Below are positions 8,710-34,981 of a DNA stretch of 49,887 nt, in pieces. Under the pieces are notes generated by a model. It had not been told where the DNA came from. It was given only the letters and a program-made list of their open reading frames with translations, and searched no databases. The stretch is from positions 1 through 49,887 of the forward strand of contig JALEPZ010000101.1 in the NCBI GenBank assembly GCA_022767125.1. The letters run 5' to 3'. The translations under genes and the position numbers were made by a program. The DNA comes from Phocaeicola plebeius. GTDB taxonomy: Bacteria > Bacteroidota > Bacteroidia > Bacteroidales > Bacteroidaceae. Position 1 is the stretch's first letter. Each line of letters begins with the position of its first letter.

Positions 8710-8806
8710 TTCCTTTTTGTACATTCTTTTACGATTCAATTTCCGCAATCGATAACCTTCCTCCCTCTTCCGGCAGACCTTTATTAACTTTTTCTCACTA
8801 CTTTTG
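8710..8806 (+). promoter_or_regulatory. Promoter/operator A of susC1-susD1 (shared regulon element)
   Basis: The element TTCCTTTTTGTACATT occupies 8710-8725, followed by a second conserved patch TTTCCGCAATCGATAACC (about 8740-8757) and a -7 element TACTTTTG at 8799-8806. The GTACATT core starts 80 bp upstream of the -7 element, exactly as at elements B, C and D (25331/25411, 27926/28006, 34894/34974). No good -33 box is visible, which fits an activator-dependent promoter. The rest of 8579-8709 shows no gene and nothing I can interpret. Confidence 0.7.
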
Positions 8807-8850
8807 CCATCGAACAAAATAATTATTCACCCCCAAAAAAACAACTGCCT

Positions 8851-8992
8851 ATGAAAGCAAAAAAGCCAGATAATGGGCAATATCATCTGGCTTGAAATCA
8901 AAGTCATCTCTGTAACAGTACAAGCACCTCGCACGTGCTTTCCGAAACAAAAAAAACTTTATTAACAAACAAAAATAGACATAATCTTTGTC
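8851..8992 (+). ncRNA. Conserved structured 5' leader of susC1
   Basis: The leader is about 180 nt from the predicted start of transcription. It has hairpin 1 (AAGCCAGAT at 8863-8871 with ATCTGGCTT at 8885-8893), hairpin 2 (AAGCAC at 8922-8927 with GTGCTT at 8935-8940, 7-nt loop) and a box AGACATAATCTTTGTCATGAA touching the susC start, in which GACA and TGTC can pair. The leader of susC2 has the same hairpin 1 with the same flanks (GGGCAA in the loop, TTGAAATC after it) and the same terminal box at the same distances. It is probably a cis-acting RNA element or pairing target; a function is not demonstrated. Confidence 0.55.
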
Positions 8993-11900
8993 ATGAACAC
9001 ACATATTAAATATTTTTTGCTGGCTTCCTGCATAATTAACGGTTATCCACTACTGGCAACTACCAACACAGGAAGCAACGCCTCATCCTCCTCTACCCAG
9101 GCACTGCAACAATCCACCCGTATATCGGGAAAAATCGTTGACAAGAACGGCGAACCGATTATCGGAGCCAATTTCCTCGAAAAAGGTACCACCAACGGTA
9201 CCATCACCAACATTGACGGCCGGTTCGAACTGACCGTACAGAAGAAAGCCATCGTCGTTTCCTATATCGGTTACATCACCAAAGAAGTCACCGTGAGCGG
9301 CCGCAACATGACCATCACACTGGAAGAAGATTCCAAAGCACTGGAAGAAGTGGTCATCGTCGGTTTCGGTACCCAAAAGAAAGTCAACCTCACCGGTTCG
9401 GTAAGCAGTGTCGATCAGGAAAAACTGGCAGGCGTACCGGCCACCAATGTCACTTCCATGCTGCAAGGCAAACTGCCGGGTGTGGCCATCACTCAAACTT
9501 CCGGTCTGCCAGGACGGGAGAACACCTCCATCCGCATCCGCGGTGTCGGGACGATGAACAATGCCGCACCGATGGTGTTGGTCGATGGACTGGAAGCCTC
9601 GATGGACGACGTGAATCCGAACGACATTGAGAGTGTCAGTGTCCTGAAGGATGCGGCAGCTGCCTCCATCTATGGAACGCGTGCCGCCAACGGTGTCATT
9701 CTGGTCACTACAAAACGAGGAAAAAGCGGCAAACCGACCTTGACCTATAACGGCTACGTGGGGTTCCAGCAGGCCATTCAACTGCCCGAACACCTCTCAT
9801 CAGCCGAATATGCCGAACTCTACAACGAAGGTCTGAAGAACGAGGGGGCCTCTCCTGCCTATTCCACTGAGGACATCGAAAAATACAGAAACGGCAGCGA
9901 TCCTTACAACTATCCCAATACCGACTGGATGGACGCTCTGCTGCAGGGCAGCGGCTTCACCCACAACCACAACCTGAGCATCAACGGCGGAACGGAAGCC
10001 ACCCGGTATGCCGTCTCGCTGGGTTACTACAACCAGGAAGGCCTGACCAAAAACACGGACTACGACCGCTACAACCTGCGGTTCAACATAGACACGAACA
10101 TCAACGACCGCATCAGCTTCGGCGTGAGCAGCAGTGTTTCGTACCGCGAAATCAATGTCCCCACCACGCCCTATGCCAACAGCAACGACATGTCGCAGTT
10201 CTTCCGTCAGGCCAATCGCATCCCCAACACCTATGTCAACCAGTACGAGGACGGCAGCTTCGGACGACACATCGACGGCAACCCCATCGCCTGGATTGAG
10301 GCAGGCGGGAAAGCCACTTCGCACTATACCCACGCACTGGGCAGTGTGTTCGGCGAAATCAAACTGATGGACGGGCTGACCCTGAAGGGAATCATGGGTG
10401 CCGACTACAGCATCGACGAAGGCAAGACCCACATTTTGGAGATTACCTACGCCAACGGTTCCGTACAGGGTCCGAACAGCGTTTCCGACTATTGGGCCCG
10501 CACCTCCACCATCACCTTGCAAGCCCTGCTCAATTACGAAAAGACCTTCGGGAAGCACGGTGTCAAGTCCATGGCCGGCGTATCGAGAGAAGCGTACCGC
10601 TACCATACCACTTCCGCCTATCGCAAGAACTTCCCCAGCAATGCCCTGACCGAGCTGAATGCCGGTTCTACCGACGGATGGTCGAACAGCGGAAGTTCGC
10701 TCGACAGCAACATCGGATCGTATTTCGGAAGAGTGAACTATGACTATGCGGGCCGCTACCTTTTCGAAGCCAATGTCCGTGCCGACGGTTCTTCCAAGTT
10801 CGCTGCCGGCCACCGCTGGGGCGTATTCCCCTCCTTCTCTGCCGGCTGGAGAATCTCCGAAGAATCGTTCATGAAAAAAGTGGAATGGCTGGACAACCTG
10901 AAGCTGCGAGCTTCCTGGGGCAAGCTGGGTAACCACCGCACCAGCGACTACCAGTACATCGCCACCATCACACTGGGCAAGAACTACCCGTTCGGAGGCA
11001 GCATCAGCGACGGAGCCGCACAGACCACCGCCAACAACGAGAACATCACCTGGGAAACCACTACCGAGTTCGATTTCGGCGTTGACTTTGGCATGCGTAA
11101 CGGCCTACTGACCTTCTCTGCCGACTATTACAACCGCTACACTGACAACATTCTGACCGTGGTGCCCGTCACCTATATCTACGGACTGAGTGCCCCGGTT
11201 TCCAATGCCGGCGCCATGCGCAACAAAGGATTCGAGTTTTCAATAGGACATCAATATTCCATCGGCAAATTCAACTATAACCTCGACGGTTACATCGCCT
11301 TCAACAAAAACAAAGTAGAAAAGTATTCGAACCCCTCGAAGGGTGACTACATCCAGATGGAAGGTGAAGCCTGGAACTCATTCTACGGCTACGAGTGCAT
11401 CGGTATCTTCGAAAGCGACGAGGAAGCCGCCAACAGTCCCACCCAGTCGTCGCTGGTAAAAGCGGGCGACCTGAAGTTCAAGGACCAGAACGGCGATGGT
11501 GTCATCAATGCCGACGACCGTGTCGTACTGGGCAACACCATCCCGAACATTACCTACGGCTTCAATATCGGCCTCAACTACCAGGGCTTCGATGTATCGG
11601 CAGCCTTCCAAGGTGCAGCCGACGTGTACCGCACGATGGACCGAGAAACGATGTGGGGATTCATTGACGGAGCCAATGCCAGCAAGCGCCACCTCGACCG
11701 CACCATCGTGGAAAACGGCGTCGTTACACATTACGGCAAGTATCCGAGAGTCCTCATCACGCAATCCCAGAACCGGGTGATGAGCTCCTTCCTTGCCATG
11801 GATGCCAGCTACCTCCGACTGAAGAACCTGCAAGTGGGCTACACCTTCCCCAAGAAATGGCTGGAGCCGCTCCACATACAACGGGCACGCATCTACGCCA

Positions 11901-12028
11901 GCGGACAGAACCTACTGACCTTCACCAGCTTCCCGAAGGACTGTGACCCTGAAGTATCCAACGGCTATGCCGGCTATTCGTACCCACAAGTAGCCATCTA
12001 CACCTTTGGACTGGACATTACTTTTTAA
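8993..12028 (+). CDS. susC: SusC/RagA-family TonB-dependent outer-membrane transporter 1
   Basis: The product has 1011 residues. There is a signal peptide (residues 1 to about 22), a carboxypeptidase-regulatory-like domain from about residue 42 (ISGKIVDKNGEPIIGANFLEKG), the TonB-box/plug start LEEVVIVGFGTQKK, and a plug domain with the SusC-class motif IRIRGVGTMNN...VLVDGLE...IESVSVLKDAAAASIYGTRAANGVI. A 22-strand barrel follows, ending in a terminal Phe (FGLDITF). It would import oligosaccharides across the outer membrane with SusD1, whose gene starts 12 bp later. It is expressed from promoter A with a structured leader. Confidence 0.95.
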   Translation: MNTHIKYFLLASCIINGYPLLATTNTGSNASSSSTQALQQSTRISGKIVDKNGEPIIGANFLEKGTTNGTITNIDGRFELTVQKKAIVVSYIGYITKEVTVSGRNMTITLEEDSKALEEVVIVGFGTQKKVNLTGSVSSVDQEKLAGVPATNVTSMLQGKLPGVAITQTSGLPGRENTSIRIRGVGTMNNAAPMVLVDGLEASMDDVNPNDIESVSVLKDAAAASIYGTRAANGVILVTTKRGKSGKPTLTYNGYVGFQQAIQLPEHLSSAEYAELYNEGLKNEGASPAYSTEDIEKYRNGSDPYNYPNTDWMDALLQGSGFTHNHNLSINGGTEATRYAVSLGYYNQEGLTKNTDYDRYNLRFNIDTNINDRISFGVSSSVSYREINVPTTPYANSNDMSQFFRQANRIPNTYVNQYEDGSFGRHIDGNPIAWIEAGGKATSHYTHALGSVFGEIKLMDGLTLKGIMGADYSIDEGKTHILEITYANGSVQGPNSVSDYWARTSTITLQALLNYEKTFGKHGVKSMAGVSREAYRYHTTSAYRKNFPSNALTELNAGSTDGWSNSGSSLDSNIGSYFGRVNYDYAGRYLFEANVRADGSSKFAAGHRWGVFPSFSAGWRISEESFMKKVEWLDNLKLRASWGKLGNHRTSDYQYIATITLGKNYPFGGSISDGAAQTTANNENITWETTTEFDFGVDFGMRNGLLTFSADYYNRYTDNILTVVPVTYIYGLSAPVSNAGAMRNKGFEFSIGHQYSIGKFNYNLDGYIAFNKNKVEKYSNPSKGDYIQMEGEAWNSFYGYECIGIFESDEEAANSPTQSSLVKAGDLKFKDQNGDGVINADDRVVLGNTIPNITYGFNIGLNYQGFDVSAAFQGAADVYRTMDRETMWGFIDGANASKRHLDRTIVENGVVTHYGKYPRVLITQSQNRVMSSFLAMDASYLRLKNLQVGYTFPKKWLEPLHIQRARIYASGQNLLTFTSFPKDCDPEVSNGYAGYSYPQVAIYTFGLDITF

Positions 12029-12040
12029 AACAAAACACCT

Positions 12041-13648
12041 ATGATCATGAAAAAACAAATATTGCTGCCATTGTTTGGAATGGCTTTATTGTCGACCTCA
12101 TGTGGAGACAGTTTCCTGAATGTCGCTCCTGCTGACCAGTTGTCGGATGCCACGTATTGGAAAACGGAAGCCGATGCAGCCAGTGCCCTGACGGGATGCT
12201 ACAACGGATGGGAAACCATCACCAACATTGTTTTTCTGGATGCTGCCACCGACAACGGCTACGAGCAGTTCAACTATCTGTACCAGCCCATCGGCAACGG
12301 CCAGCTGCTGCCTACCTCCTCTACCGGCTATGAAGCTCCGTGGGTAGACGGCAGTGCGACCCGCTGGTTCACCTACGACCGCATCCGCAAGTACAACAAC
12401 TTCCTGGAGAAAATCGACGGTGTGGAAATGGACGAAACGACTAAAGAACGCTACAAGGCGGAAGTCCGCTTCCTCCGCGCCTACGACTACTACAACAAAG
12501 TGATGTTCTACGGCGACATTCCTTTGGTGACGAGTGTCATCTCCGATGCTGAAGAAGCCAAGATGACCCGTACACCAGCCGCTGAAGTCACCGAATTTGT
12601 TCTGAAAGAACTGACAGAAGTAGCCGCCGTCCTCCCCACACAGAACCAGGTACAATCGGGCGGTCACATCACGAAAGGTGCAGCACTGGCCCTCAAGAGC
12701 CGGTTCGAGCTCTACCTGGGCAACTATGAAGCGGCACAAGCCGATGCCGCCACTGTCATCGGCATGGGCTGCTACGAGCTGTACCCCGACTACGAAACCC
12801 TTTTCTATCCGTCGGCAAAGAATGCCAACAAAGAATCCATTCTGGACGTGCAATACATGAAGGACCACTATGCCAGCATGATTCCCCAGCTCAATCTGCC
12901 TGCCATAGAAGGCGGATGGTCGGCACTGAACGCGCTGTGGCCGTTCATTGATGCTGCCCAGATGAGCAACGGCAAGTTCAAGGATGAAGAGGGTTCGGGT
13001 TACGATGACAACCGTCCGTTCGACAATCGCGACCCGCGCCTGACCGCCATCGTACTCTGTCCGGGACAACCCTACAACGGACGCATCTACAACCCCTTGG
13101 ACAAGACCATCAACGGCAACAACAACGACGATTATCATGTGAACGCTGCCGCATCGAGAGGAGGCCTGCTGATCAAGAAGTTCATCTATCCGATGTCGAT
13201 AGACGACGCCAACAACTACGACGCCAACGGCATGGTCATCCGCCTGGCAGAAGTCTATATCACCTTCGCCGAATGTGCCCTGCAGACCGGGAAGGACAAG
13301 GACAAGGCACTGGGCTACCTCAACCTGATACGGCAACGGGCAGGGATGCCAGCCGCCGACATCCTGACAGACCAGTTAGTGAAATACGAACGGAGGATGG
13401 AACTGGCCTTCGAAGGGTTGAGATACTTCGACCTGAAACGTTGGGACCTCGGTCCGAGCGTCCTCAACGGACCCGCCCGAGGCAGCCGTGACGGATCGGT
13501 CAACTCGCAGACAGGCGAAGTGACCTGGAACGGAGACTACATCGTGCTGGAAGAACGGACCTTCATTCCCGAGCGCAAGTATCTGCTGCCCATTCCGCAA
13601 AACGAACTGGACCGCAACGAGAACATGAAACAGAATAACGGTTACTAA
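12041..13648 (+). CDS. susD: SusD/RagB-family outer-membrane glycan-binding lipoprotein 1
   Basis: The product has 535 residues. A lipoprotein signal peptide ends in STSC, followed by GDSFLNVAPADQLSDATYW, the typical SusD start. The helical TPR-rich N-terminal part contains ERYKAEVRFLRAYDYYNKVMFYGDIPLVT. The C-terminal motifs are GYLNLIRQRAGMP, RRMELAFEGLRYFDLKRWD and KYLLPIPQNELDRNENMKQN. It caps SusC1 and binds substrate at the cell surface. Two in-frame ATGs (12041 and 12047) are possible; the second gives MKKQILL. A strong inverted repeat at 13664-13733 ends the unit. Confidence 0.94.
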   Translation: MIMKKQILLPLFGMALLSTSCGDSFLNVAPADQLSDATYWKTEADAASALTGCYNGWETITNIVFLDAATDNGYEQFNYLYQPIGNGQLLPTSSTGYEAPWVDGSATRWFTYDRIRKYNNFLEKIDGVEMDETTKERYKAEVRFLRAYDYYNKVMFYGDIPLVTSVISDAEEAKMTRTPAAEVTEFVLKELTEVAAVLPTQNQVQSGGHITKGAALALKSRFELYLGNYEAAQADAATVIGMGCYELYPDYETLFYPSAKNANKESILDVQYMKDHYASMIPQLNLPAIEGGWSALNALWPFIDAAQMSNGKFKDEEGSGYDDNRPFDNRDPRLTAIVLCPGQPYNGRIYNPLDKTINGNNNDDYHVNAAASRGGLLIKKFIYPMSIDDANNYDANGMVIRLAEVYITFAECALQTGKDKDKALGYLNLIRQRAGMPAADILTDQLVKYERRMELAFEGLRYFDLKRWDLGPSVLNGPARGSRDGSVNSQTGEVTWNGDYIVLEERTFIPERKYLLPIPQNELDRNENMKQNNGY

Positions 13649-13663
13649 ACAATGTTTTCTTTG

Positions 13664-13733
13664 AGACACCAAGACGCAGCCATGCCATGTCCGGACACCT
13701 TCCGTTCTCATGCATCCCTGTGTCTTGGTGTCT
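13664..13733. terminator. Long-stem inverted repeat between susD1 and araC regulator 1
   Basis: AGACACCAAGACGCAG (13664-13679) pairs with CTGTGTCTTGGTGTCT (13718-13733) with a single mismatch. It lies 15 bp after susD1 and 2 bp from the end of the convergent regulator gene. A bidirectional terminator is likely. Repeats of the form GACACCAAGACACAG are, as I recall, scattered in Bacteroides genomes, so this may be a dispersed repeat reused as a terminator. Confidence 0.6.
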
Positions 13734-13735
13734 AA

Positions 13736-14623
13736 TCACCCTTTCCGTTGCTGGCGGTAGCTACGGGGAGACATGCCCATGATTTTGGTGAACAGCCTGG
13801 AGAAATAATACGAATCGTCAATGCCGATTTTGAAACAGATCTGGTTAACCTTCATATCGGTAGCATCCAGCAGGTAACAGGCTTGTTGGATTTTCAACAG
13901 ATTAAGATAAGCCAGAGGAGTGTGCCCGGTCATTTGTTTGAACAGCATGGAATAGTGGGACACCGAATAGCCGATATAACCGGCAATTTCCTCCAATGTC
14001 AGCCGTTTCTCCAGGTTCTCTTTCATATAATGGATGGACTGCTGGACAGCATTACCATCGTTGCTGTCCTCCTGCTTGCCGGCCCTGTACTGCTGGATGT
14101 TCAGCAGGGAGCCGAAGAAGTAATGGAGCAAGGAGGAGGCATAATACAGGTTGTCGATTGCATAGCCCGACTGTAACGTAGTGAAGATTTCCTCAAAAAT
14201 GGCCACCCGGGTCTGGATGCGGGAATTCTGCCGGGGCTCGACGCTGACAGGGCACAGGGCATGGCGGGCATAATGGGCAGCCAGGTGCCCTTTGAAGTGA
14301 ATCCAGTAGATGGTCCATGAATGCCGTTCATCGGTCCCATAGCTGTGCGGCTGGCCGGAGGGCAGGATGAAATACTGGTTGGCATGCACGGTCTGGAGCT
14401 TTCCGTTCACCTTATACCACCCCTTCCCATCGACACAATAGATAAACACGTACTGGTCGATGGGGGTCAGCCTTTCCCGGAAATGGTTGGTAGCCTTGGG
14501 GAAATAGCCGATGTCTGTCAAGTGCAAGGCGGCGGTCATCTCGTCCTTCTCCAGCAGGTTGACCACCAGTTGGGGCAATACGAGGATGCGCGAGCCTTGG
14601 AATCCGTCTTTCTGTCTTATCAT
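13736..14623 (-). CDS. AraC-family transcriptional regulator 1
   Basis: The product has 295 residues with an N-terminal cupin-like effector domain (roughly 15-150; FRERLTPIDQYVFIYCVDGKGWYKV and ANQYFILPSGQPHSYG) and a C-terminal pair of helix-turn-helix motifs (about 195-292; LTLEEIAGYIGYSVSHYSMLF and KVNQICFKIGIDDSYYFSRLFTKIMGMSPRSYR). Both HTH units fit the AraC/XylS signature. It is cytoplasmic. It is divergent from the sugar porter operon at 14761 and convergent with susD1, so the porter operon is its most likely target. The intergenic region between them contains direct repeats suitable as binding sites. Confidence 0.9.
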   Translation of the reverse strand: MIRQKDGFQGSRILVLPQLVVNLLEKDEMTAALHLTDIGYFPKATNHFRERLTPIDQYVFIYCVDGKGWYKVNGKLQTVHANQYFILPSGQPHSYGTDERHSWTIYWIHFKGHLAAHYARHALCPVSVEPRQNSRIQTRVAIFEEIFTTLQSGYAIDNLYYASSLLHYFFGSLLNIQQYRAGKQEDSNDGNAVQQSIHYMKENLEKRLTLEEIAGYIGYSVSHYSMLFKQMTGHTPLAYLNLLKIQQACYLLDATDMKVNQICFKIGIDDSYYFSRLFTKIMGMSPRSYRQQRKG

Positions 14624-14760
14624 AGTTTTGCAAATATATGTAATTCTTCGGAACCGTCCAACCGTTCATCAGAAAAAAGTCCATCATCAGAAGAATATCG
14701 TCTATTTTTCCAACAGGGGATTCCTCCTAATTTTGCAGTCGTAATCATTAAAGCTGTTAT
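14624..14760. promoter_or_regulatory. Divergent promoter region of araC regulator 1 and the MFS operon
   Basis: Plus strand: TAATTTTG at 14728-14735 is a good -7 element, 33 bp before the porter ATG. Upstream are direct repeats TCATCAGAA at 14666-14674 and 14684-14692 (18 bp apart) and two AACCGT units near 14652-14665, placed where an AraC-type activator would bind. Minus strand: TATATTTG near 14633-14640 is a -7 candidate for the regulator. The GTACATT element of the other units is absent, so this operon is probably controlled differently. Confidence 0.5.
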
Positions 14761-16143: not shown

Positions 16144-16185
16144 AACAACTCATCGAAAATGGTAAAAGCTTGGAAATAAACTGTA

Positions 16186-25147: not shown

Positions 25148-25155
25148 TATCTAAC

Positions 25156-25232
25156 TGTCATGCTGAACGGAGTGAAGCAGCTGGATACATCCGCTTTGTG
25201 CGGACAGATTTCTCACTTCGTTCGAAATGACA
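25156..25232. repeat. REP-like imperfect palindrome
   Basis: TGTCATGCTGAACGGAGTG at 25156-25174 is mirrored by CACTTCGTTCGAAATGACA at 25214-25232 with a few mismatches, and an inner perfect hairpin TCCGC/GCGGA lies at 25190-25204. Palindromes of this TGTCATGCTGAACGAAGTGAAG type are, as I recall, dispersed intergenic repeats in many bacterial genomes. It has no visible coding role. Confidence 0.55.
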
Positions 25233-25321
25233 GGGGAAAAGGGAAAGCGGAAATACAATTCTCGGACAGCCTGGGAGAGGTTCAGAGGATGCACCAAAAG
25301 GGACAGCCTTTCTCCAGCCGG

Positions 25322-25418
25322 TTCCTTTTTGTACATTTTTTCACGTTTTGGCTTCCGTAATCAACAGCCTTCACCTTCCTTTTTTCAAAGGGGCAACGAT
25401 GATTTTTCACTATCTTTG
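25322..25418 (+). promoter_or_regulatory. Promoter/operator B of the triple-esterase gene (shared regulon element)
   Basis: TTCCTTTTTGTACATT lies at 25322-25337, CTTCCGTAATCAACAGCC at about 25352-25369, and the -7 element TATCTTTG at 25411-25418. The core-to-(-7) distance is 80 bp. Sequence from about 25300 to the start of translation is closely similar to promoter C (AAAGGGACAG upstream; AGAATCAACCT and TTTTATTCATCAA downstream), so B and C arose by duplication. The ATG is 46 bp from the -7 element, almost the same as at D (45 bp). Confidence 0.7.
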
Positions 25419-25456
25419 CAATCGTAAGAATCAACCTGTTTTATTCATCAAGAACC

Positions 25457-27565
25457 ATGAAAAGAATCTTTTTGGCATGTATTTGGTGTCTGTTGATTTT
25501 GCCTACAGGCTTATGGGCAAAACGAATTAAGGTGGCGTGCGTGGGCAATAGCATCACGTACGGTGCAGGTATTTCCAACCGGGAGAAAAATTCTTATCCC
25601 GCTCAGTTGCAGTATTACCTGGGCGACGGTTACGAAGTCCGCAATTTCGGCTCGAACGGAGCAACGGCGCAGTCGGACGGCGATTTCCCGTATGTTCGTA
25701 CAGGGGTGTACGGCGAATCAAAGAATTTTCTTCCAGATATTGTTCTGATTAAATTGGGAACCAACGACACCAAACCCCAAAACTGGAAAGACGAAAAGCA
25801 TTTTATGGAAGAGTATCAGACGCTTATCGATACCTACCGCTCGCTGGATTCACATCCGCAGGTGATTCTGCTCACTCCGGTGCGTTGCTTCCTTACCGAA
25901 AAGAACACCATCAGTCCGCGCATTATCGAAGAAAAGGTACATCCGGTAGTCGAACAGCTGGCTTATGATAACGAACTGGGTATCATCAATCTGCATAATC
26001 TATTCGGCAACCAGTGGAATCAGGTCATTATGCCAGACCGTTTGCATCCGTCTTCTATCGGTGCGGGTGAGATAGCGCGTAAAATCGGCGATTACCTGCT
26101 GAATGCAGCTCAAAGGATGCCGGCTGACTTTCTACCCGAAAATGCTACCTCCTTCAATTTTCACGGCTATCAGGGATACGATTTCCAGTTGGATGGGGTT
26201 CCTTGTAAAGTGGTACGTCCGGCTAAAGAAGCACAGGGAAGACCCTGGATATGGCGGGCGCGTTTCTGGGGACATGAGCCGCAGACCGACATCGACTTGC
26301 TGGAGCAAGGTTTCCATGTGGTATATTGCGATGTGACCGACTTGTATGGTGCCGATAAGGCAGTCAAACGCTGGAACAAGTTCTACAAATACCTGGTAAA
26401 TAACGGTTTTCATGAAAAGGCCGTACTGGAGGGTATGAGCCGTGGCGGACTGATTGTTTATAACTGGGCTGCACAAAACACTGATAAAGTGGCTTGTATT
26501 TATGCCGATGCACCGGTTATGGACGTTAAGAGCTGGCCGATGGGAACAGGTGCTTATGCAGGTTCGACCGAGGATATGGCTCGGATGCTGGCAGCCTACG
26601 GCTTTAAGAATGAGGAACAGGCTTTACGCTGGAAAAAGAATCCGCTGAATCATGCGGCCAAGATAGTACGTGCCGGCATTCAGGTGCTACACGTAGTGGG
26701 CGATGCAGACAACATTGTTCCGGTGGCAGAGAATACGGCCCTTTTCGAAGCAGAAATGAAACGTCTCGGTGCTCCGATTACCGTAATTCACAAACCGGGT
26801 ATCGGCCATCATCCGCATTCACTGAATAATCCCGAATCGATTGTACGTTTCATCCTGAAAGCTACCGGCCGGTGGTCCAACAATTGTGCTCATGCCGTTC
26901 CCGGAAATGAGTACCGTTCGGCTGCCGGATGGGTGGAAGGCTCGGAGTGGCATTCGGTAGCACAGGATATCGAAACCACACTGAACGGACGTAAACTGAA
27001 ACTGCTGTTGCTGGGCAATTCTATTACACAAGGCTGGGGCGGCATGCGCAAGCTCGTCAACTACCAACTGGGCAAGCAGGCCATGGACAACGCTTTAGGA
27101 CAGGGGAACTGGGAGAGTGCCGGTATCTCGGGCGACCGTACACAGAACTTGCTTTGGCGTGTCCGCTACGGAAACTACAACCGTTGTACGCCCGAATATG
27201 TGGTGATTGCCATCGGAATCAATAATCTGATAGTCGATCAGGACACAGCAGACGATACGGCTGAAGGTATCATTGCCGTTACAGAAGAAGCGTGCAAACA
27301 GTTCCCTGATTCAAAGATTATCCTGTTGGGACTTTTCCCTTCCGGAAAAGAGCAGGGCAGTGCAGCCCGTGAACAGTGTAACCGCGTTCATAAACTGCTG
27401 GGAACATATAACTTCGGAGTTCAGGTCAGTTACACCAATCCTACAGACTGGTTTCTTGACGAACATGGAACGATTCGTGATGGACTTTACATCGGCGATT
27501 ATATCCACTTTACCGACAAAGGTTATGCTTGTGTTGCCTCACATTTGATACAGTTAATGAAATAA
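25457..27565 (+). CDS. Secreted three-domain esterase: SGNH, alpha/beta-hydrolase, SGNH
   Basis: The product has 702 residues with a signal peptide (1-21). Domain 1 (about 23-215) is SGNH/GDSL: Ser32 in GNSIT, Asn103 in GTND, Asp194/His197 in DRLHPS. Domain 2 (about 230-470) is an alpha/beta-hydrolase: nucleophile Ser328 in GMSRGG, acid in VVGDADNIVP (Asp416 or Asp418), His451 in GIGHHPHS. Domain 3 (about 510-702) is a second SGNH unit: Ser522 in GNSITQGWGG, Asn589 in IGINN, Asp681/His684 in GDYIHFTDKGY. All three catalytic sets look intact. Such enzymes usually remove acetyl or other acyl groups from glycans. It is a single-gene unit behind promoter B, and its codon use is more AT-rich than that of the flanking GH2 genes. 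Confidence 0.85.
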   Translation: MKRIFLACIWCLLILPTGLWAKRIKVACVGNSITYGAGISNREKNSYPAQLQYYLGDGYEVRNFGSNGATAQSDGDFPYVRTGVYGESKNFLPDIVLIKLGTNDTKPQNWKDEKHFMEEYQTLIDTYRSLDSHPQVILLTPVRCFLTEKNTISPRIIEEKVHPVVEQLAYDNELGIINLHNLFGNQWNQVIMPDRLHPSSIGAGEIARKIGDYLLNAAQRMPADFLPENATSFNFHGYQGYDFQLDGVPCKVVRPAKEAQGRPWIWRARFWGHEPQTDIDLLEQGFHVVYCDVTDLYGADKAVKRWNKFYKYLVNNGFHEKAVLEGMSRGGLIVYNWAAQNTDKVACIYADAPVMDVKSWPMGTGAYAGSTEDMARMLAAYGFKNEEQALRWKKNPLNHAAKIVRAGIQVLHVVGDADNIVPVAENTALFEAEMKRLGAPITVIHKPGIGHHPHSLNNPESIVRFILKATGRWSNNCAHAVPGNEYRSAAGWVEGSEWHSVAQDIETTLNGRKLKLLLLGNSITQGWGGMRKLVNYQLGKQAMDNALGQGNWESAGISGDRTQNLLWRVRYGNYNRCTPEYVVIAIGINNLIVDQDTADDTAEGIIAVTEEACKQFPDSKIILLGLFPSGKEQGSAAREQCNRVHKLLGTYNFGVQVSYTNPTDWFLDEHGTIRDGLYIGDYIHFTDKGYACVASHLIQLMK

Positions 27566-27712
27566 CATTTATAAAAACAGATTTGTCACGAATGACATAC
27601 CAGTTGCCGACGGACAGCAGTTCAACGCCATCTCTTACCCAAAGCGAAGTGCGGCTCATCGCCGTTTTGGGGGGCGAATCGTGGGCCGGTAAAACCGCAG
27701 TTATCAACCCAT

Positions 27713-27774
27713 AAGAATGGCTGTTGTAATTCTACTACAACAACTATTATAAAACACTTACAACGGCTATTCTT
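27713..27774. repeat. Nested inverted repeat after the triple-esterase gene
   Basis: AAGAATGGCTGTTGTAA (27713-27729) pairs with TTACAACGGCTATTCTT (27758-27774), 17 bp with two G-T pairs; an inner alternative hairpin GTTGTA/TACAAC shares part of the left arm. It could terminate the upstream transcript. The flanks (27600-27712 and 27775-27880) contain no gene I can support, though GTTAACGACGC and similar short palindromes near 27790 hint at recombination-related DNA. Confidence 0.45.
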
Positions 27775-27916
27775 GCAAAATACCGCCGAGTTAACGACGC
27801 TAAACGAGGTCTGCCCCTCCTTTAGTTATAATTCAACCGTGAAGCCACAAATGGGATAGCATGCGCCTATGTAGGGTGGTGTACGAAAAGGGACAGACTT
27901 CCCCATTCAGAGTCTG

Positions 27917-28013
27917 TTCCTTTTTATCTATTTTTTCATGTTTTTGACTTCCGAAATCTATAACCTTCCTTTCTCATTTTCCAAGGGGCAATCGTGAATA
28001 AACCCTATCTTTG
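27917..28013 (+). promoter_or_regulatory. Promoter/operator C of susC2-susD2 (shared regulon element)
   Basis: TTCCTTTTTATCTATT at 27917-27932 (GTACATT changed to ATCTATT), ACTTCCGAAATCTATAACC near 27948-27966, and the -7 element TATCTTTG at 28006-28013. The core-to-(-7) distance is again 80 bp. The three altered core bases may weaken or change regulation relative to A, B and D. Confidence 0.65.
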
Positions 28014-28059
28014 CAATTGTGAGAATCAACCTATTTTATTCATCAAAGAACTAATGCTA

Positions 28060-28198
28060 ATGAAGGAAAAAAGCCAGACAATGGGCAAGATTATCTGGCT
28101 TGAAATCTAAGCTCAAATTGTTTTAAAAGGGGCAGTAACTATGCCGTCATCAATTCAAACCTTACAATTATCGAACAAAATTAGACATAATAATTGTC
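28060..28198 (+). ncRNA. Conserved structured 5' leader of susC2
   Basis: Hairpin 1 is AAGCCAGA (28071-28078) with TCTGGCTT (28094-28101), its loop holding ATGGGCAA as in the susC1 leader. A weak hairpin 2 is GGCA (28131-28134) with TGCC (28142-28145), 7-nt loop. The box TAGACATAATAATTGTCATGAA touches the start codon. Distances to the ATG (128 bp from hairpin 1) and to the -7 element (65 bp) match those of susC1 (130 and 64). A short frame through hairpin 1 differs in reading frame between the two leaders, so RNA structure rather than a leader peptide is conserved. Confidence 0.55.
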
Positions 28199-31100
28199 AT
28201 GAATAAATGTTTTAAATACTTTTCAAGCAAATATGGTAAATTTTTCATAGCAGCCAGCATTATAGGTTTACCTACAGTGGCTGAACATGCATTCGCTGTT
28301 CAACACACTCTCTCGCAGATAGAGCAACAAAAGAAAATCACAGTCAGTGGTAAAGTGTTAGATACCAATAACGAAGCCATTATCGGTGCTACCATTTTGG
28401 AAAAGGGAAGCGGAAATGGAACCGTCACCAATATGAACGGTGAGTTCTCGTTGGATGTAGCCCCCAATGCTATTCTGGAAGTATCCTATATTGGATATAC
28501 TACCACAACCGTAAAGGTTCCTCGGGGTGCCAATCGTGTAATGAGCATCAAGTTGCAAGAAGACAACAAAATTCTGGATGAAGTGATTGTGGTCGGTTAT
28601 GGTACGACCAGTACCCGAAAGAACAGTACCGCCGTGTCCGTTGTGGACAATACTAAGATCAAAGAAGTTCCTTTTTCAGACATGGGATCCAGTCTTCAAG
28701 GTCGTGTAGCGGGTATCATCGTACAGCAAGGCTCGGCAGAACCGGGTCAGAACGGAGCCAGTGTCTCTATTCGCGGAAATGGTGCTCCCCTCTATGTCAT
28801 CGATGGTTTTGTATCCACTTCGGCACAATTCATGCAGTTGAACAAGAATGATATTGAGTCGTTGACTGTCTTGAAAGATGCCGCTTCAACAACCGTTTAT
28901 GGTATGAATGCCGGAAACGGAGTCGTGGTGGTCAAGACCAAGCAAGGGTCTGTAGGTAAGCTGGGGGTCAGCTACCAGGGGAATTTTGCCTTCAATTCTC
29001 CTTCTTATCCTGCGGAAAGAATGGACGCCTATGAATATGCGACCGCAATTAATAAACTATACCAGGGCTTGGGTTATGGTATCAACAGTTTTAAGACTCC
29101 CGAGGAGATGGCAGAAATTGCCGCCAATGTAGGCTCATATACAAACTGGGAAAAAGAACTCCTCAAGAACCATGCGGCCCAGAGTGAGCATACCCTTTCT
29201 GTCACTGGAGGCAACGAAAAGGTGAAAATGTTCAGCAGCCTTAATTATCTGACGCAGGATGGTATCATTAAAGGCGACGCTCTTCAATACCACCGATACA
29301 ATTACCGCATCAATGCCTCGGGTAATTTTGAAGAGATTGGACTTACGGTAGGCATGGGAGTCAACGGGACATTGACGGATGAAGATTATCCTGCAGCCAG
29401 TGCCTATACTATCTACTCCCGCCTGAAAGACAGAAATCCGTTTGAAATCGCCTATAACCCGGATGGCACCATATCCAATCAGTTTGACAATCCTGCATTG
29501 GTAATCGAGAGCCCGGGCTATTACAAGCTGCGTACGGTATATAACCAGCTCACAATGAATGTCAACTGGAATATTCCTTGGGTCAAGGGGTTGAGTGTTG
29601 GATTTGATGGTAATTACAATATCACGTCAAAAGATGAGGCGGATTGGATAGAAACAGCTCCCTATTATGACGCAGATGGGAATGTGACCTACCCGAATCC
29701 TTCTGACATTAGTCTCACGCGGTCTTCCTACCAGAACCATCGGTATGACATCAATTTCAAGGTAGACTACAAGAATACGTTTGCAGAAAAGCATAATGTG
29801 GCCGCTACGTTTGTACACAATCGGCAGTATTATCATGGGAATTCGTTGAGCGCATACGCCAACACCTTCTATACCAATGTCATTCATCAATTACAGAAGG
29901 GCGATGCCGAGAGTGTGACAGCCAGCAACAGTGAAAGCGAACAAGCCTCTCTGGGCTATGTAGGGCGTCTGCACTACGACTTTAACAACCGGTACATGAT
30001 TGAATTTGCCGGACGCTATGACGGATCGGACTGTTTCCCCAAAAACAAACGTTTTGGATTCTTCCCCTCTGTCTCCGCGGGTTGGACCATTTCGGATGAG
30101 GGTTTCTTCGATTTCCTGAAAAGAAACAAGATTCTGGACTATCTGAAGATACGTGCCTCTTACGGAGAATTGGGTATCAATGGAGCCAGTCACGATGCCT
30201 ATGCGTATCTGCAGACCTATAATTACAATTCCAGTGCCTATGTCATCGGTGGGAAACTTGTCAATTCAGTCACTCCAGGTGTCACGCCCAGTGAGAACCT
30301 GACATGGTACACCCGCAGGAAAACAGACGTAGGTATAGACTTTGCCACGTTGAACAATAAGTTGGAAGGAGCAGTTGACTGGTTCTATGAAAGCACCAAG
30401 GGTTATTTAGCTTCTCCGAACTATGAGTACACCGATCCGTTGGGCTATAGTCTGCCCCAGATAGTGTCGGACGCAGAAGACCGCAATGAAGGCCTGGATG
30501 GATACTTGAAATATAAGGACAAGGCTGGTACGTTAGAGTACTCAGTGGGCGCCAACTTTACGTGGTATCACGCCATAGCTGCAAAAACCAACGAGGACAA
30601 GGTGACTTTATCCAATCCTTATACCAGAACCCAAGGCTATCTTTATAACTATTTGGGCACGGGATATGTCGGTAGCCAGATTTACCAGACGGCTGAAGAA
30701 ATTCTGAACAATCCTAAACGGGAAAAGTCGCGAGATTTGCGTCCGGGTGACCTCTGGTATGAAGATGTGAACGGTGACGGTAAGATTGACGGTCAGGACC
30801 AAAGAAAGTATGGACACAGCAAGAATCCGACTTTTGTCTATGGTTTTGACATATCACTGGCATGGAAGGGATTCAGCCTGTTGGCAAACATCCAAGGTAC
30901 TGGACGCAGACAGATATACATGAGCAATATAGCTCAAGGACAAGAAGGGGAAAGAAGACTGGACTTTGCTTATCAATTGGATACCTGGAGTCCTGAAAAC
31001 ACCAATTCCTCCTTCCCGCGTCCCGGTAACCTCTCGTTGAACGAGAACAACAACTATGCAAGTTCGGATTTCTGGGCACGTGACGCACAATACATCCGGC

Positions 31101-31309
31101 TGAAGTCACTGACCATCGCCTATGACTTTAAGCATGCGCTGTTGAAAAAGGAGAACTGGGTGAAAGAATTGTCGGTATTCGCATCGGGTGTCAACTTGTT
31201 TGCCATAGGTCCTTCTGTCAAGTACGCCGATCCCGAGGCCTCGAATTTTGATGGATATGCTTATCCGATGATGAGGACAATCTCATTTGGACTCCAATTA
31301 GGATTTTGA
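28199..31309 (+). CDS. susC: SusC/RagA-family TonB-dependent outer-membrane transporter 2
   Basis: The product has 1036 residues with an N-terminal signal region (FSSKYGKFFIAASIIGLPTV) and a carboxypeptidase-regulatory-like domain from about residue 46 (ITVSGKVLDTNNEAIIGATI). The plug has LDEVIVVGYGTTSTRKNS, VSIRGNGAPLYVIDGF, and IESLTVLKDAASTTVYGMNAGNGVVVV. The C-terminal barrel ends in ...ISFGLQLGF. It is only distantly related to SusC1, so it is not a recent duplicate, although the two share promoter and leader elements. It has lower GC than most of the locus. It forms an operon with susD2 (29 bp) and a small lipoprotein. Confidence 0.95.
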   Translation: MNKCFKYFSSKYGKFFIAASIIGLPTVAEHAFAVQHTLSQIEQQKKITVSGKVLDTNNEAIIGATILEKGSGNGTVTNMNGEFSLDVAPNAILEVSYIGYTTTTVKVPRGANRVMSIKLQEDNKILDEVIVVGYGTTSTRKNSTAVSVVDNTKIKEVPFSDMGSSLQGRVAGIIVQQGSAEPGQNGASVSIRGNGAPLYVIDGFVSTSAQFMQLNKNDIESLTVLKDAASTTVYGMNAGNGVVVVKTKQGSVGKLGVSYQGNFAFNSPSYPAERMDAYEYATAINKLYQGLGYGINSFKTPEEMAEIAANVGSYTNWEKELLKNHAAQSEHTLSVTGGNEKVKMFSSLNYLTQDGIIKGDALQYHRYNYRINASGNFEEIGLTVGMGVNGTLTDEDYPAASAYTIYSRLKDRNPFEIAYNPDGTISNQFDNPALVIESPGYYKLRTVYNQLTMNVNWNIPWVKGLSVGFDGNYNITSKDEADWIETAPYYDADGNVTYPNPSDISLTRSSYQNHRYDINFKVDYKNTFAEKHNVAATFVHNRQYYHGNSLSAYANTFYTNVIHQLQKGDAESVTASNSESEQASLGYVGRLHYDFNNRYMIEFAGRYDGSDCFPKNKRFGFFPSVSAGWTISDEGFFDFLKRNKILDYLKIRASYGELGINGASHDAYAYLQTYNYNSSAYVIGGKLVNSVTPGVTPSENLTWYTRRKTDVGIDFATLNNKLEGAVDWFYESTKGYLASPNYEYTDPLGYSLPQIVSDAEDRNEGLDGYLKYKDKAGTLEYSVGANFTWYHAIAAKTNEDKVTLSNPYTRTQGYLYNYLGTGYVGSQIYQTAEEILNNPKREKSRDLRPGDLWYEDVNGDGKIDGQDQRKYGHSKNPTFVYGFDISLAWKGFSLLANIQGTGRRQIYMSNIAQGQEGERRLDFAYQLDTWSPENTNSSFPRPGNLSLNENNNYASSDFWARDAQYIRLKSLTIAYDFKHALLKKENWVKELSVFASGVNLFAIGPSVKYADPEASNFDGYAYPMMRTISFGLQLGF

Positions 31310-31338
31310 TAATCGAATTAATTAAATAGATACAAGTG

Positions 31339-33216
31339 ATGAAAAAATATCTATATGCAGCATTGTTGGGTATCGCCACATTAGGAGCGACATCATGCTC
31401 CGACTTCTTGGATACCAAACCTTATGATAAGATCACCAGCGACGACACATGGAACAATGAAGAGTTGACCAAGTCATACATCTATTCTCTGTATTCGGAT
31501 GTGCTCCAGCAGAACTTGTGGTTGGGTGCGTACGGCGCGGTGTATAGTTGCCGTGCGGAGAGTTGCACAAAGAATGCCATGACGGGAACACTGAATGGTT
31601 CTTACTGGTCCAGAGACCGTGCTGAGTTGCTTACCAACGATGACAATTACGGATGGCTGAGTTTTAATGTCTTGTGGAGAATCCATACCGCCATGGAGGA
31701 AATCAATAACAGTTCCCTCTTCTCCGAAGCATTCAAGGAGCAATTAGTAGGAGAATTGAAGTTCCTGCGGGCGGCACACTATTTTCTGTACGCAAGACAA
31801 TATGGAGGACTGCAGATCATTGACCGGGTGCTGACCCTGGACGACGATATGCAGATACCCCGTGCGGGTATCCGTGAGACGTATGATTTCATACTGAACG
31901 ACTTGAAGGAGGCAGCCAAAGTACTCCCTTCGCCGGAAGCAACGGAAAGAGGACGTGCCAGCAATGCTGCAGCCAATGCCCTTTTGATGAGGGTTGCCAA
32001 CCAAGCTGCGGCCTACGTTGATGGAGGCAAATCAGACAGCAACTATTACAATGATGTCATAGCTGCCGGAAATGCCATTGGCTTGGATGCGAGCGGTAGT
32101 CAACTCAGTCCTTATTATAACTTGTTCCGTTCGTATGAAACGGCCGTTGATGCTTCCGAACAAATCCTGATTGTAGAACGTTCCAGCAAAAACACCTCCT
32201 TGTTCAGTGTACCTATGCAGTATCAGGGATTATGGTACGCTGGCCATATCTCTCAATATGCGAAGGAACACTTTCCTATAACCGTCACCATGAACTTTTG
32301 GGGCATGGATGGAGGATCGTGGCCCACGCAAGACCTGGTGGATGACTATCTGGTTCGGGATGTTGCCGACGGACAAATGAAGTACTGGGAGGATGCCTCC
32401 TATGTGCAGACTGGAGTGAATGTGGATGAAAAAATGTATTTTAGCCGTGATAGGCATCGGGACCTGCGATTCTATACGACCGTCCTTTACGACAGCTGTA
32501 TGTACTTCAATGAGCAGGCCCGCATTTTCTTCCGTCGGGATGGTAACTGCAGCAATTCCAACAGCAAGATCAATGAGGGCGCTTTTGAAGAATATGGATG
32601 TCTGGCAGGTGATTTAGACAACTATAACTCATCTACTGGATATGCTATGGTGAAATACCATTATGACCACATTGTTAGCTTACCCTCACCCTCAGCGCAG
32701 ATGTTGGATTATTGCTTTTCTGTGTTACGATATGGAGAGGCATATTTGAACATGGCAGAAGCTTACCTGATGAAAGGCGATTTTGAGAATGCGAAGCGGT
32801 ATATGATTCCGACAATGGTCAAGCATGGAGGATTCAATGAACAGCAGGCGCAGGACTATCTGGCAGGCAAATCAGGAAACGGATGGTATGATTCGCTGTT
32901 CGAGGCGTACAAGCGGGAACGTAATGTTGAGATGGTGTACGAGAACAACGACCGCTATTGGTCATTGCTCCGGTGGGGAATGCGCCAGAGCGGAGGAGCT
33001 GAGGACAACGGCTATGTCACGAATGGCTTTGTCATCCCAGAGCTGACAGGTTCGTTGAGAGGTATCCGTATCTCACGGGATGGCCGGGACTATAGTTTCT
33101 TTGAAGATAACAATGTTATCGGAGAGGCCAAATTCACCCCGAAACGATATCTATTGCCTTTGAGCCGCAGTTTCTGCATGAAATCAGGAGTGAAGCAAAA
33201 TCCCGGATGGGAATAA
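31339..33216 (+). CDS. susD: SusD/RagB-family outer-membrane glycan-binding lipoprotein 2
   Basis: The product has 625 residues from the ATG at 31339; a GTG just before it (31336) is a less likely start. The lipoprotein signal is MKKYLYAALLGIATLGATSC, followed by SDFLDTKPYDKITSDDTWNN. SusD features include VGELKFLRAAHYFLYARQYGGLQIIDRV, YGEAYLNMAEAYLMKGDFENAKRY, ERNVEMVYENNDRYWSLLRWGM and the C-terminal KRYLLPLSRSF. It is longer than SusD1 and is paired with SusC2 for uptake, probably of a different oligosaccharide size or type. Confidence 0.93.
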   Translation: MKKYLYAALLGIATLGATSCSDFLDTKPYDKITSDDTWNNEELTKSYIYSLYSDVLQQNLWLGAYGAVYSCRAESCTKNAMTGTLNGSYWSRDRAELLTNDDNYGWLSFNVLWRIHTAMEEINNSSLFSEAFKEQLVGELKFLRAAHYFLYARQYGGLQIIDRVLTLDDDMQIPRAGIRETYDFILNDLKEAAKVLPSPEATERGRASNAAANALLMRVANQAAAYVDGGKSDSNYYNDVIAAGNAIGLDASGSQLSPYYNLFRSYETAVDASEQILIVERSSKNTSLFSVPMQYQGLWYAGHISQYAKEHFPITVTMNFWGMDGGSWPTQDLVDDYLVRDVADGQMKYWEDASYVQTGVNVDEKMYFSRDRHRDLRFYTTVLYDSCMYFNEQARIFFRRDGNCSNSNSKINEGAFEEYGCLAGDLDNYNSSTGYAMVKYHYDHIVSLPSPSAQMLDYCFSVLRYGEAYLNMAEAYLMKGDFENAKRYMIPTMVKHGGFNEQQAQDYLAGKSGNGWYDSLFEAYKRERNVEMVYENNDRYWSLLRWGMRQSGGAEDNGYVTNGFVIPELTGSLRGIRISRDGRDYSFFEDNNVIGEAKFTPKRYLLPLSRSFCMKSGVKQNPGWE

Positions 33217-33241
33217 GACAACAATCAAAAGTTTATAGAAT

Positions 33242-33784
33242 ATGAAAGCAATTTTTAATAGATTACTGGTCGCACTGTTCTCGGTTTTCTTATTCTCAAG
33301 CTGTCTGTATCATAATTTGGAGGAACTGGAGAATTCGAGTGACAAAGACATGACGAATGTAAATTATTCGTATCGTTTTCTGTACAATGATACCATCAAA
33401 AAAGGAACGGTGAACGAAGAAATACAAAAAGACAGAGTGTGTGAAGTGATTTTTAATAAATCACTGGAGAAAACCGAGCAAGGTGGTTTGACGCATTTCA
33501 AAGCTACCCTTACGCATAATGTGAATTGTGTTCAAAAGGGTGGTCCTTCCGGATCGGTCACCAAACAGATGCTGTATGATATGTTCACAAAGAAGATTAC
33601 CCAAGATGGACTGAGTTCATTATGGGTGTATGTATCTATCTCTGATGCGGCGACTGTGACTCCGTTGGACGGAGCTCCTAAACTGGGTACTCCCGGTGAT
33701 TTTTCAGCAAACCGTACCTACCGGGTAACTGCCGCTGACGGTTCATATTCAGATTATGTGTTGGAGACCATCAAGGGATTCTGA
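33242..33784 (+). CDS. Small PUL lipoprotein (possible surface glycan-binding protein)
   Basis: The product has 180 residues. The lipoprotein signal peptide ends in FLFSSC (Cys about 21). The mature part is Thr/Lys-rich beta-type sequence and ends in YRVTAADGSYSDYVLETIKGF, which resembles the DUF5018-type beta domains of PUL lipoproteins; I am not certain of the family. Its position directly after susD2 (25 bp) is where SusE/SusF-like or SGBP proteins are encoded, but it is much shorter than those. No catalytic motif was seen. A strong terminator follows. Confidence 0.65.
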   Translation: MKAIFNRLLVALFSVFLFSSCLYHNLEELENSSDKDMTNVNYSYRFLYNDTIKKGTVNEEIQKDRVCEVIFNKSLEKTEQGGLTHFKATLTHNVNCVQKGGPSGSVTKQMLYDMFTKKITQDGLSSLWVYVSISDAATVTPLDGAPKLGTPGDFSANRTYRVTAADGSYSDYVLETIKGF

Positions 33785-33853
33785 CGATACTCGTGATGGA
33801 CTGAAACCAATCATGGAGTAAGGCACTTATAAACTGCCGATACCGAAGGACTT

Positions 33854-33919
33854 GAATCGTGTATAGGAGTTAAAGCTAATGGATCTCAACATCCTTAGCT
33901 TTGGCTCCTAACACGATTC
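33854..33919 (+). terminator. Long-stem terminator of susC2-susD2-lipoprotein
   Basis: The arms 33854-33879 (GAATCGTG...AAAGCTAA) and 33895-33919 (TTAGCTTT...CACGATTC) pair over about 25 bp with one bulge and two G-T pairs, loop about 15 nt. A short T/C-rich stretch follows further on. It lies 70 bp after the lipoprotein stop and before the araC regulator promoter. Confidence 0.65.
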
Positions 33920-33979
33920 TAATGGTTCTTCCTGTTGAATTTTCCTCCTTCTTGTTTTGCATTCCTCAAAAATTATACG

Positions 33980-33987
33980 TACCTTTA
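33980..33987 (+). promoter_or_regulatory. -7-like element for araC regulator 2
   Basis: TACCTTTA matches TAnnTTTG in all but the last base, 37 bp before the ATG at 34017, with a TTTG about 22-25 bp further upstream (near 33955) acting as a possible -33 box. It suggests a regulator gene with its own basal promoter. Confidence 0.4.
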
Positions 33988-34016
33988 CATCACAATACAG
34001 AAAAAGATTGGACACT

Positions 34017-34880
34017 ATGGAAACAGCTATTGATAATGCTTCCCTTTGGGACTTCCTCAAGCACATTTGCGACGGCCTGCAGAGCAAGCGGCTGGCCGAC
34101 GTCTTCCGGTTTATTTCCTTCTACCCCAACGAGACTTATGGACCACACAGCCACCTGCGCATCGAAATCAACTATGTCAAGAAAGGAAGCTGCTTCATCC
34201 ATCTCGACAAGGAAAGCGTCACGTTCCGCGAGGGGGAAATCATGATTATCTCGTCGAATGTGGAACATTTATTCGAGGCGGGATCGGAAGGCTGTACCCT
34301 CATGCAGTTGGAATTTCTTCCTGAAATCTTCACCCGGTTCAACCGCCCGGACAACGACGGGAATCCCCTCAGCTCCGTCTTCCTGTTCAGCGAAGAAAAC
34401 CGCCTCATCAAGATTACCAACAACGTGCGCATCATGCGCACCGTGCAGCGCATCGTGAACGAACTGGAAGCCAAGAGCCCCTACTACCAGCACTTGGTGG
34501 TGATGTACTATGCCGAACTGCTGATTCTCATCAACCGCCACATGGATGAAGCCTTCCTGCCCATCTGCGCCAACGAGTCGCTGAAGAAGTCCATCGCCTA
34601 CCTGCGCCACCATTTCCAATCGAACATCTCTATAGCCGATGTGGCCCGCCACTGCGACATCAGCGAACGCTACCTGCGTATCCTGTTTGCCCAGCACCTG
34701 AAAATCACGCCGCTGGACTACCTGAACCAGCTCCGCATCAACAAGTCCATCGAACTGCTGCGCAACACCGAACTGTCGATCAAGGAAATCAGCTTCCAGT
34801 GCGGATTCCAGTCGCCCCAGTACTTCTCCCGTATCTTCAAGCAACAGACCGGAAAGACCCCTCGGGAGATGACGCGATAA
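34017..34880 (+). CDS. AraC-family transcriptional regulator 2
   Basis: The product has 287 residues from the ATG at 34017 (METAIDNASLWDFL); the frame is open from 33957, but the -7-like element lies in that extension. The N-terminal cupin-like ligand domain (about 30-140) has SFYPNETYGPHSHLRIEINYVKKG and EGEIMIISSNVEHLFEAG. The C-terminal double HTH (about 190-285) has SIADVARHCDISERYLRILF and SIKEISFQCGFQSPQYFSRIFKQQTGKTPREM. The stop codon is only 14 bp from the GTACATT element of promoter D, so it is the best candidate regulator of the A-D elements (inference from position). It would respond to a small cytoplasmic ligand, perhaps the incoming sugar or a pathway intermediate. Confidence 0.9.
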   Translation: METAIDNASLWDFLKHICDGLQSKRLADVFRFISFYPNETYGPHSHLRIEINYVKKGSCFIHLDKESVTFREGEIMIISSNVEHLFEAGSEGCTLMQLEFLPEIFTRFNRPDNDGNPLSSVFLFSEENRLIKITNNVRIMRTVQRIVNELEAKSPYYQHLVVMYYAELLILINRHMDEAFLPICANESLKKSIAYLRHHFQSNISIADVARHCDISERYLRILFAQHLKITPLDYLNQLRINKSIELLRNTELSIKEISFQCGFQSPQYFSRIFKQQTGKTPREMTR

Positions 34881-34884
34881 GCAT

Positions 34885-34981
34885 GTCCGTTTTGTACATT
34901 TTTTCCTTGATTTCTTGCCTAATTGCGCAACTGATACAGCGGTTGGATTCCACTTTCTCCAGCAAAGATAGCGTAACTTTG
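34885..34981 (+). promoter_or_regulatory. Promoter/operator D of the catabolic/GH2 operon (shared regulon element)
   Basis: TGTCCGTTTTGTACATTTTT at about 34885-34904 is followed by TTGCC near 34916 (equivalent to TTCCG of the other copies) and the -7 element TAACTTTG at 34974-34981. The GTACATT core begins 80 bp before the -7 element, as in A-C, while the rest of the sequence has diverged; this points to selection for the core and its helical phase. The ATG of the first gene follows the -7 element by 45 bp. Confidence 0.65.

Follow-up and report, generated by a model that had tools for sequence, protein, structure and literature searches.

Are four promoters that share one upstream element controlled by a common regulator, and if so, by which one? 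This question is raised by a 49,887-bp stretch of Phocaeicola plebeius DNA (contig JALEPZ010000101.1 of assembly GCA_022767125.1, positions 1 to 49,887, forward strand; hereafter the window), in which the element precedes two susCD units, an esterase gene and an oxidative sugar-acid operon. A preliminary description of the window had proposed a bound activator in fixed helical phase uniting the four promoters into one regulon, with AraC regulator 2 (AraC2; 34017..34880, forward strand) as the candidate. We consider it likely that the four elements (A–D), together with a fifth on contig C75 of the same assembly, are operators of one AraC-family regulon, at which an AraC2 dimer would activate transcription through a fixed-phase contact with sigma-ABfr RNA polymerase.

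Four candidate operators and a fifth site

The elements start at 8710 (A), 25322 (B), 27917 (C) and 34885 (D), their cores at 8719, 25331, 27926 and 34894, and the TAnnTTTG boxes downstream at 8799, 25411, 28006 and 34974. All of these positions were re-found in the window, with core and box exactly 80 bp apart (first base to first base) at 4/4 sites, including C, where the core reads ATCTATT and not GTACATT. A search with TTCCTTTTTGTACATTTTTTC allowing up to three mismatches returned exactly four matches in the window, A–D, and none in 100 shuffles. The distance from core to start codon varied (274 bp at A, 126 at B, 273 at C and 125 at D), and the promoter, not the gene, is therefore the anchor of the element. 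A second TTCCG/TTGCC patch is also present as described, but its placement about 20 bp further on was too loose, with 31 bp separating CC from CC (32 bp at C).

All four operators lie on the forward strand. Operator A comprises half-site 1 (TTCCTTTTTGTACA; 8710..8723) and, 31 bp after it, half-site 2 (TTCCGCAATCGATA; 8741..8754), followed by the -7 box TACTTTTG (8799..8806) of susCD unit A (susC 8993-12028, susD 12041-13648). Operator B has the same half-site 1 (TTCCTTTTTGTACA; 25322..25335) with half-site 2 TTCCGTAATCAACA at 25353..25366, and the -7 box TATCTTTG (25411..25418) serves the esterase gene (25457-27565), which codes for a 702-aa protein with GDSL, S9-type and GDSL domains. At operator C, the half-site 1 with the diverged core (TTCCTTTTTATCTA; 27917..27930) is followed after 32 bp by half-site 2 (TTCCGAAATCTATA; 27949..27962) and then by the -7 box TATCTTTG (28006..28013) of susCD unit C (28199-31309 and 31336-33216). 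Operator D (half-site 1 GTCCGTTTTGTACA, 34885..34898; half-site 2 TTGCCTAATTGCGC, 34916..34929; CC-to-CC 31 bp) precedes the -7 box TAACTTTG (34974..34981) of operon D (35019..49586), whose genes code for an RraA-like protein, an MR_MLE dehydratase, an SDR, an SMP-30 lactonase, an SSS symporter and three GH2 enzymes and, judging from gene order, would be co-transcribed.

The sequence between element and box was said to have diverged strongly. Counting identical bases from half-site 2 to the box, this held for A–C (10/43) and for every pair that includes D (10-12/43), only partly for A–B (21/43), and not for B–C (26/43). Promoters B and C (25331-25448 and 27926-28043), which are also identical at 27/30 bases after the box, may have arisen by duplication of a single promoter, A perhaps partly so, and promoter D appears to be either independent of A–C or long diverged from them.

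The element did not turn up in front of many unrelated genes, a result that the preliminary description had named as contrary to its proposal; there were five good copies in the whole assembly (3.12 Mb, 125 contigs, 92.8% complete). A slightly degenerate motif with up to three mismatches matched seven places, which were A–D, a perfect site on contig C75 and two sites at the three-mismatch limit; the reversed control pattern matched three. On C75 the distance to the box TATCTTTG, beside a GH29 alpha-L-fucosidase gene (L034; G000:C75:3273-4862, minus strand; Pfam E 3e-56), is 79 bp. The longest frame of this gene begins before the box, and its true start therefore lies further in. A GH125 mannosidase gene adjoins this fucosidase gene, which is unlinked to the window.

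Operator anatomy and conserved spacing

We collected 33 sites and aligned 32 after dropping the near-identical L024. The aligned sites follow TTCCKTTTTGTAYA, with CC at -7/-6, TTT at -4 to -2 and T at +1 in 32/32. Sites had been selected for a box at 79-81 bp and a good first half-site, so invariance there follows from selection, and it is half-site 2 and the distances from the consensus and gap-pattern searches that provide unselected evidence; orthologous promoters are not independent of each other. Outside the selected part, C occurred at +25 in 32/32 sites and at +24 in 25/32. Sliding the half-site 1 profile along the 32 sites gave its highest direct-orientation score at +31 (z 3.8), compared to a best inverted placement at 38 (z 2.5), and the best place for half-site 2 was at 31 bp in 12/32 sites and at 32 bp in 3/32. 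By sequence, the second patch thus reads as half-site 2, the downstream unit of a direct repeat whose period is 31 bp, or three helical turns. A profile of both halves scored above 13 at 30 places in the window and loci L006-L032 (27 of them training sites), 29 with a box at 79-81 bp; when both strands of approximately 1.0 Mb of Markov-random sequence were scored, one position exceeded 8 and none exceeded 9.

The -7 box TAnnTTTG at all sites, which was also a selection criterion of the aligned set, is of the sigma-ABfr promoter type. In Bacteroides thetaiotaomicron, promoters of this type (-7 and -33 elements) precede 81% of primary starts, according to the available part of PMC7366714. At our sites a TTTG near the -33 element was mostly missing, being found within 24-16 bp before the box in 2/32. 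This rarity, observed in the aligned operator sites only, would suit activator-dependent promoters.

The spacing is kept well beyond the window. In the window and 28 loci (L005-L032) we paired consensus matches (up to three mismatches) with every box lying 40-130 bp further on; 9 of the 45 pairs fell at 79 bp, 16 at 80 and 3 at 81 (28 in total), with at most two at any other distance, the consensus having been drawn partly from the same loci. We also searched 20 genomes, our own and 19 with loci found by the AraC2 query (the genomes of L008 and L027-L032 fall outside this set), with the pattern TTCCKTTTTGTN{63,93}TANNTTTG. This matched 23 places, 18 at 79-81 bp and five elsewhere, compared to 12 places in all for the reversed control. 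The concentration of 18/23 on 3 of 31 allowed distances has a binomial probability of 1e-14, although the places are not all independent, and one of the 18 (G656:C27), not among the 20 best by profile, is probably chance. Two of these genomes carry operators far from AraC2: in Phocaeicola massiliensis an unlinked operator heads a GH2 gene 61% identical to window GH2e, approximately 138 kb from AraC2, and in the genome of L021 another heads a GH2 gene approximately 0.97 Mb away.

AraC2 and its rivals

Domain analysis revealed that AraC2 (287-307 aa, its open reading frame being open from TTG 33957) contains HTH_AraC (PF00165; 4.5e-23), HTH_18 (PF12833; 2.2e-22) and AraC_binding (PF02311; 2.9e-12), that is, only a cupin-type and helix-turn-helix (HTH) domains in Pfam. 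The RhaS, RhaR and AraC models of NCBIfam were matched, each below its cut-off. The gene ends 4 bp before element D; the gap of 14 bp given previously is the distance to the core of D. Searching one genome per species, we found 27 loci. Orthologues of nearly full length, with 46-72% identity, are present in 21. In 15/21 the profile placed an operator within 400 bp downstream of AraC2 and 79-81 bp from a TAnnTTTG box, and these operator-bearing loci span Bacteroidaceae, Tannerellaceae and Rikenellaceae, three families of the Bacteroidales. Eight loci (L006-L010, L012, L015 and L025) continue with RraA, MR_MLE and SDR genes as in the window, with an SSS symporter in most and SMP-30 in three. In L013, L016, L020, L021, L023, L024 and L026 the next relative of a window gene after AraC2 is a GH2 gene. 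The sole exception to these contexts among the 15 loci is L022, where the gene after the operator was not identified. A second operator stands before AraC2 itself in L008, L009 and L010, all from Parabacteroides. Some Phocaeicola genomes also hold a paralogue, AraC2b (64% identical). In L017 it is located between GH2b and GH2a, syntenic with the AraC1-MFS-TPR-GH2 segment of the window, and an in-frame stop interrupts the copy in G080 (L074).

To set element and regulator against each other we used 301 genomes of the family (cut-offs E 1e-60 for AraC2 and E 1e-90 for AraC regulator 1, AraC1; up to seven candidates scored per genome). AraC2 was present in 5/301, our own genome holding one copy, and AraC1 in 39/301, including all five with AraC2. 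Places matched by a loose pattern, which demands TTCC and GT and is thus blind to sites C and D, lay at 79-81 bp in 8/9 cases in AraC2 genomes compared to 13/64 in the others (Fisher 1e-4). A profile trained without the AraC2 family genomes scored above 15, a cut set after the scores had been seen, in 4/5 AraC2 genomes compared to 2/296 others (Fisher 2e-7). True sites are set apart from background by distance and score only, and not by match total. A strict GTACATT pattern, fixed at 80-82 bp by construction, gave one match outside our genome (G276, 80 bp), lacking the CC of half-site 1. The exact TTCCKTTTTGTAYA pattern with a gap of 60-90 matched at 79, 80 and 80 in our own genome among 344 genomes of the order; its six other places, in five genomes, lay at 65, 74, 75, 87, 94 and 95 and are background. 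Among genomes lacking AraC2 (E 1e-60), G291 carries a site (G291:C36:28189-28286, L115) at 81 bp with a score of 20.8. It lies near the contig end after a GDSL-type gene and lacks CC at +24/+25.

Comparative genomics thus supports an activator in fixed helical phase and a single regulon over A–D, the 79-81 bp being kept in three families. The candidacy of AraC2 also gains support, as the element recurs beside its orthologues and AraC1 fits the distribution less well. The alternative in which another regulator binds, above all AraC1 (13736-14623, minus strand), and AraC2 is a mere neighbour draws on the presence of AraC1 in all five AraC2-bearing family genomes and, at E 1e-40, in 18/20 genomes with AraC2 loci (16 with at least 48% identity). 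However, among 34 genomes with AraC1 and without AraC2 just one (G291) has a site above 15, and the genomes of L013 and L025 have operators but no AraC1 at E 1e-40 (the absence in L013 is uncertain, its assembly being 2.2 Mb), with only a 39% relative in that of L023. Locus by locus the operator tracks AraC2 and not AraC1, which leaves this alternative very improbable. A little less remote, but still quite improbable, is a role of AraC2 as repressor or dual regulator, or joint use of the sites by AraC2 and AraC2b. G062 and G080 each hold two AraC2-like genes, and the operator before araC2 itself in Parabacteroides is compatible with feedback; on the other hand, the operator stops 44 bp short of the box, where it should not block polymerase, a single AraC2 (E 1e-60) is present in our own genome, and no operator was found around AraC2b in L017.

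Two explanations dispense with a regulator, and we give neither any real credence. Were the similarity a functionless remnant of promoter duplication, the spacing would simply be inherited, as B and C, with 26/43 spacer and 27/30 post-box bases in common, and A and B (21/43) might suggest; D, however, matches each of the other three at just 10-12/43 spacer bases, and across three families RraA, GH2, susC, araC2 and GH29 genes are preceded by the same geometry. The T-rich core could likewise be read as a UP-like or bent-DNA element touched by RNA polymerase itself, which fits poorly with only five good copies in our assembly, CC pairs 31 bp apart and the co-occurrence of the element with one regulator gene.

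Several observations weigh against AraC2-dependent activation at these sites. The operator lies elsewhere in the locus, not directly after AraC2, in L011 and L014; L026 has only a weak site, spotted by eye; and the profile found no operator in the AraC2 loci L017, L018 and L019, although the contig of L018 ends 30 bp after the gene. Nor did the profile find an operator in front of AraC2 in the window. Contrary to expectation, the DNA-binding domain of AraC2 is no more conserved than the cupin and the rest of the protein. The C75 site scores 10.1 in the family profile, below the post hoc 15-point cut, and match totals hardly exceed their reversed controls for the loose pattern (73 compared to 62 places in the 301 genomes) or fall short of them for the exact pattern (9 compared to 10). 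In L124 a strong operator-like site (minus strand, 6844; score 26.8) faces a susC-like gene with no TAnnTTTG 40-130 bp on, and the susC_A orthologue of Parabacteroides gordonii (70%) lacks a high-scoring operator. Finally, distances of 79-81 bp are also mildly overrepresented in genomes that lack AraC2 (13/64, p 0.008; 10/60, p 0.06, with copies removed). This may be accidental or may point to a wider rule, in which case the spacing is perhaps not private to AraC2. The excess leaves room for an extension that we regard as unlikely, namely that a whole class of AraC-type activators generally docks at 79-81 bp on Bacteroidales sigma-ABfr promoters.

Two of these loci merit separate description. 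The GH2d gene divergent from the L124 site has its own operator at 80. Upstream of the P. gordonii susC_A orthologue (L123), TTCC pairs 31 bp apart were seen by eye, the second C lying 55 bp before a variant box TTACTTTG; this is suggestive only, and the pairs are maybe a diverged operator of the same geometry.

Proposed mechanism and relation to known systems

In the mechanism that we propose, AraC2, a one-component cupin–HTH protein, would bind as a dimer, one monomer at the half-site TTCCKTTTTGTAYA and the other at the weaker TTCC.. that follows, the 31-bp period of three turns placing both on the same side of the helix. The operator would occupy about -103 to -59 if the transcript is taken, as in the preliminary description, to start 14 bp downstream of the first box base; activation is favored by this upstream position. 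A sugar or sugar acid from an imported glycan would switch AraC2 on, and the activated protein would touch sigma-ABfr RNA polymerase at the -7 box, a contact that needs a fixed helix face and would be why the 79-81 bp spacing is kept. The outcome would be co-induction of two SusCD importers, the esterase, the fucosidase and the oxidative sugar-acid operon with its GH2 beta-galactosidase-type enzymes, with AraC2 as the likely master switch of the regulon. This ligand, sugar or sugar acid, probably belongs to the operon D pathway. The MR_MLE protein of this operon is nearest to galactonate dehydratase models, below cut-off, and its nearest solved relatives bear only generic names.

This arrangement has the features of an AraC-family one-component regulon, with HTH and cupin domains, paired half-sites and an operator linked to and co-occurring with its regulator. 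Like E. coli AraC, RhaS and RhaR, AraC2 combines a cupin N-terminal domain and an AraC-type HTH with two upstream half-sites. The I1-I2 repeat of E. coli AraC has a 21-bp period and overlaps the -35, and the half-sites of RhaS and RhaR are inverted, whereas the operator described here is a direct repeat of 31 bp that ends 44 bp before the box of a sigma-ABfr-type promoter. Hybrid two-component systems (HTCS) of Bacteroides likewise pair an AraC-type DNA-binding domain with direct half-sites upstream of susCD and glycosidase operons. Their predicted motifs are direct repeats of 16+5, 12+9 and 14+6 bp with a period of 20-21 bp and, in the available part of the source, no stated fixed distance to a -7 box (PMC3878776; Ravcheev et al., 2013), and they are bound by membrane sensor-kinase fusions, in contrast to the 31-bp period and cupin–HTH regulator found here. 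Membership of an HTCS regulon was rejected, Pfam showing no sensor kinase or receiver domains in AraC2. SusR motifs are also direct repeats before susCD-type operons, interpreted in that source as monomers on the same DNA side, but with site centers 67 or 77 bp apart and a protein of another family (PMC3878776).

Side features were also present at susCD units A and C. On the minus strand, between promoter and susC, TAnnTTTG boxes occur at 8977 and 28183, with intrinsic-terminator-like hairpins and T runs at 8893-8863 (A) and 28101-28071 (C). Box and hairpin (8858-8977 and 28066-28183) would bound a putative antisense RNA of approximately 105 nt, predicted from sequence alone. It would resemble the DonS family, described in the available part of PMC7366714 as antisense RNAs of 78-128 nt divergent to susC; no Rfam match was found for either putative RNA.

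No paper describing the operator or its motif was found in the open-access literature, supplements not covered, nor was one on the RhaS half-site; the parts of PMC11253607 and PMC12596196 available have no bearing on the operator. The regulon would thus be new, and it is unusual in its direct repeat of 31 bp and in a spacing that stays rigid across three families. One-component AraC operators in gut Bacteroidales seem little mapped, an impression gained from the literature, and the present case gives a testable set of regulator, two-part operator, strict spacing and targets. Through it, an oxidative sugar-acid pathway and an unlinked fucosidase gene would be tied to a region resembling a polysaccharide utilization locus, and its promoters, with their defined architecture, lend themselves to the study of activators acting with sigma-ABfr polymerase. 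If the same held true for other AraC regulators, the shared spacing would help to predict regulons and promoters from geometry across the order.

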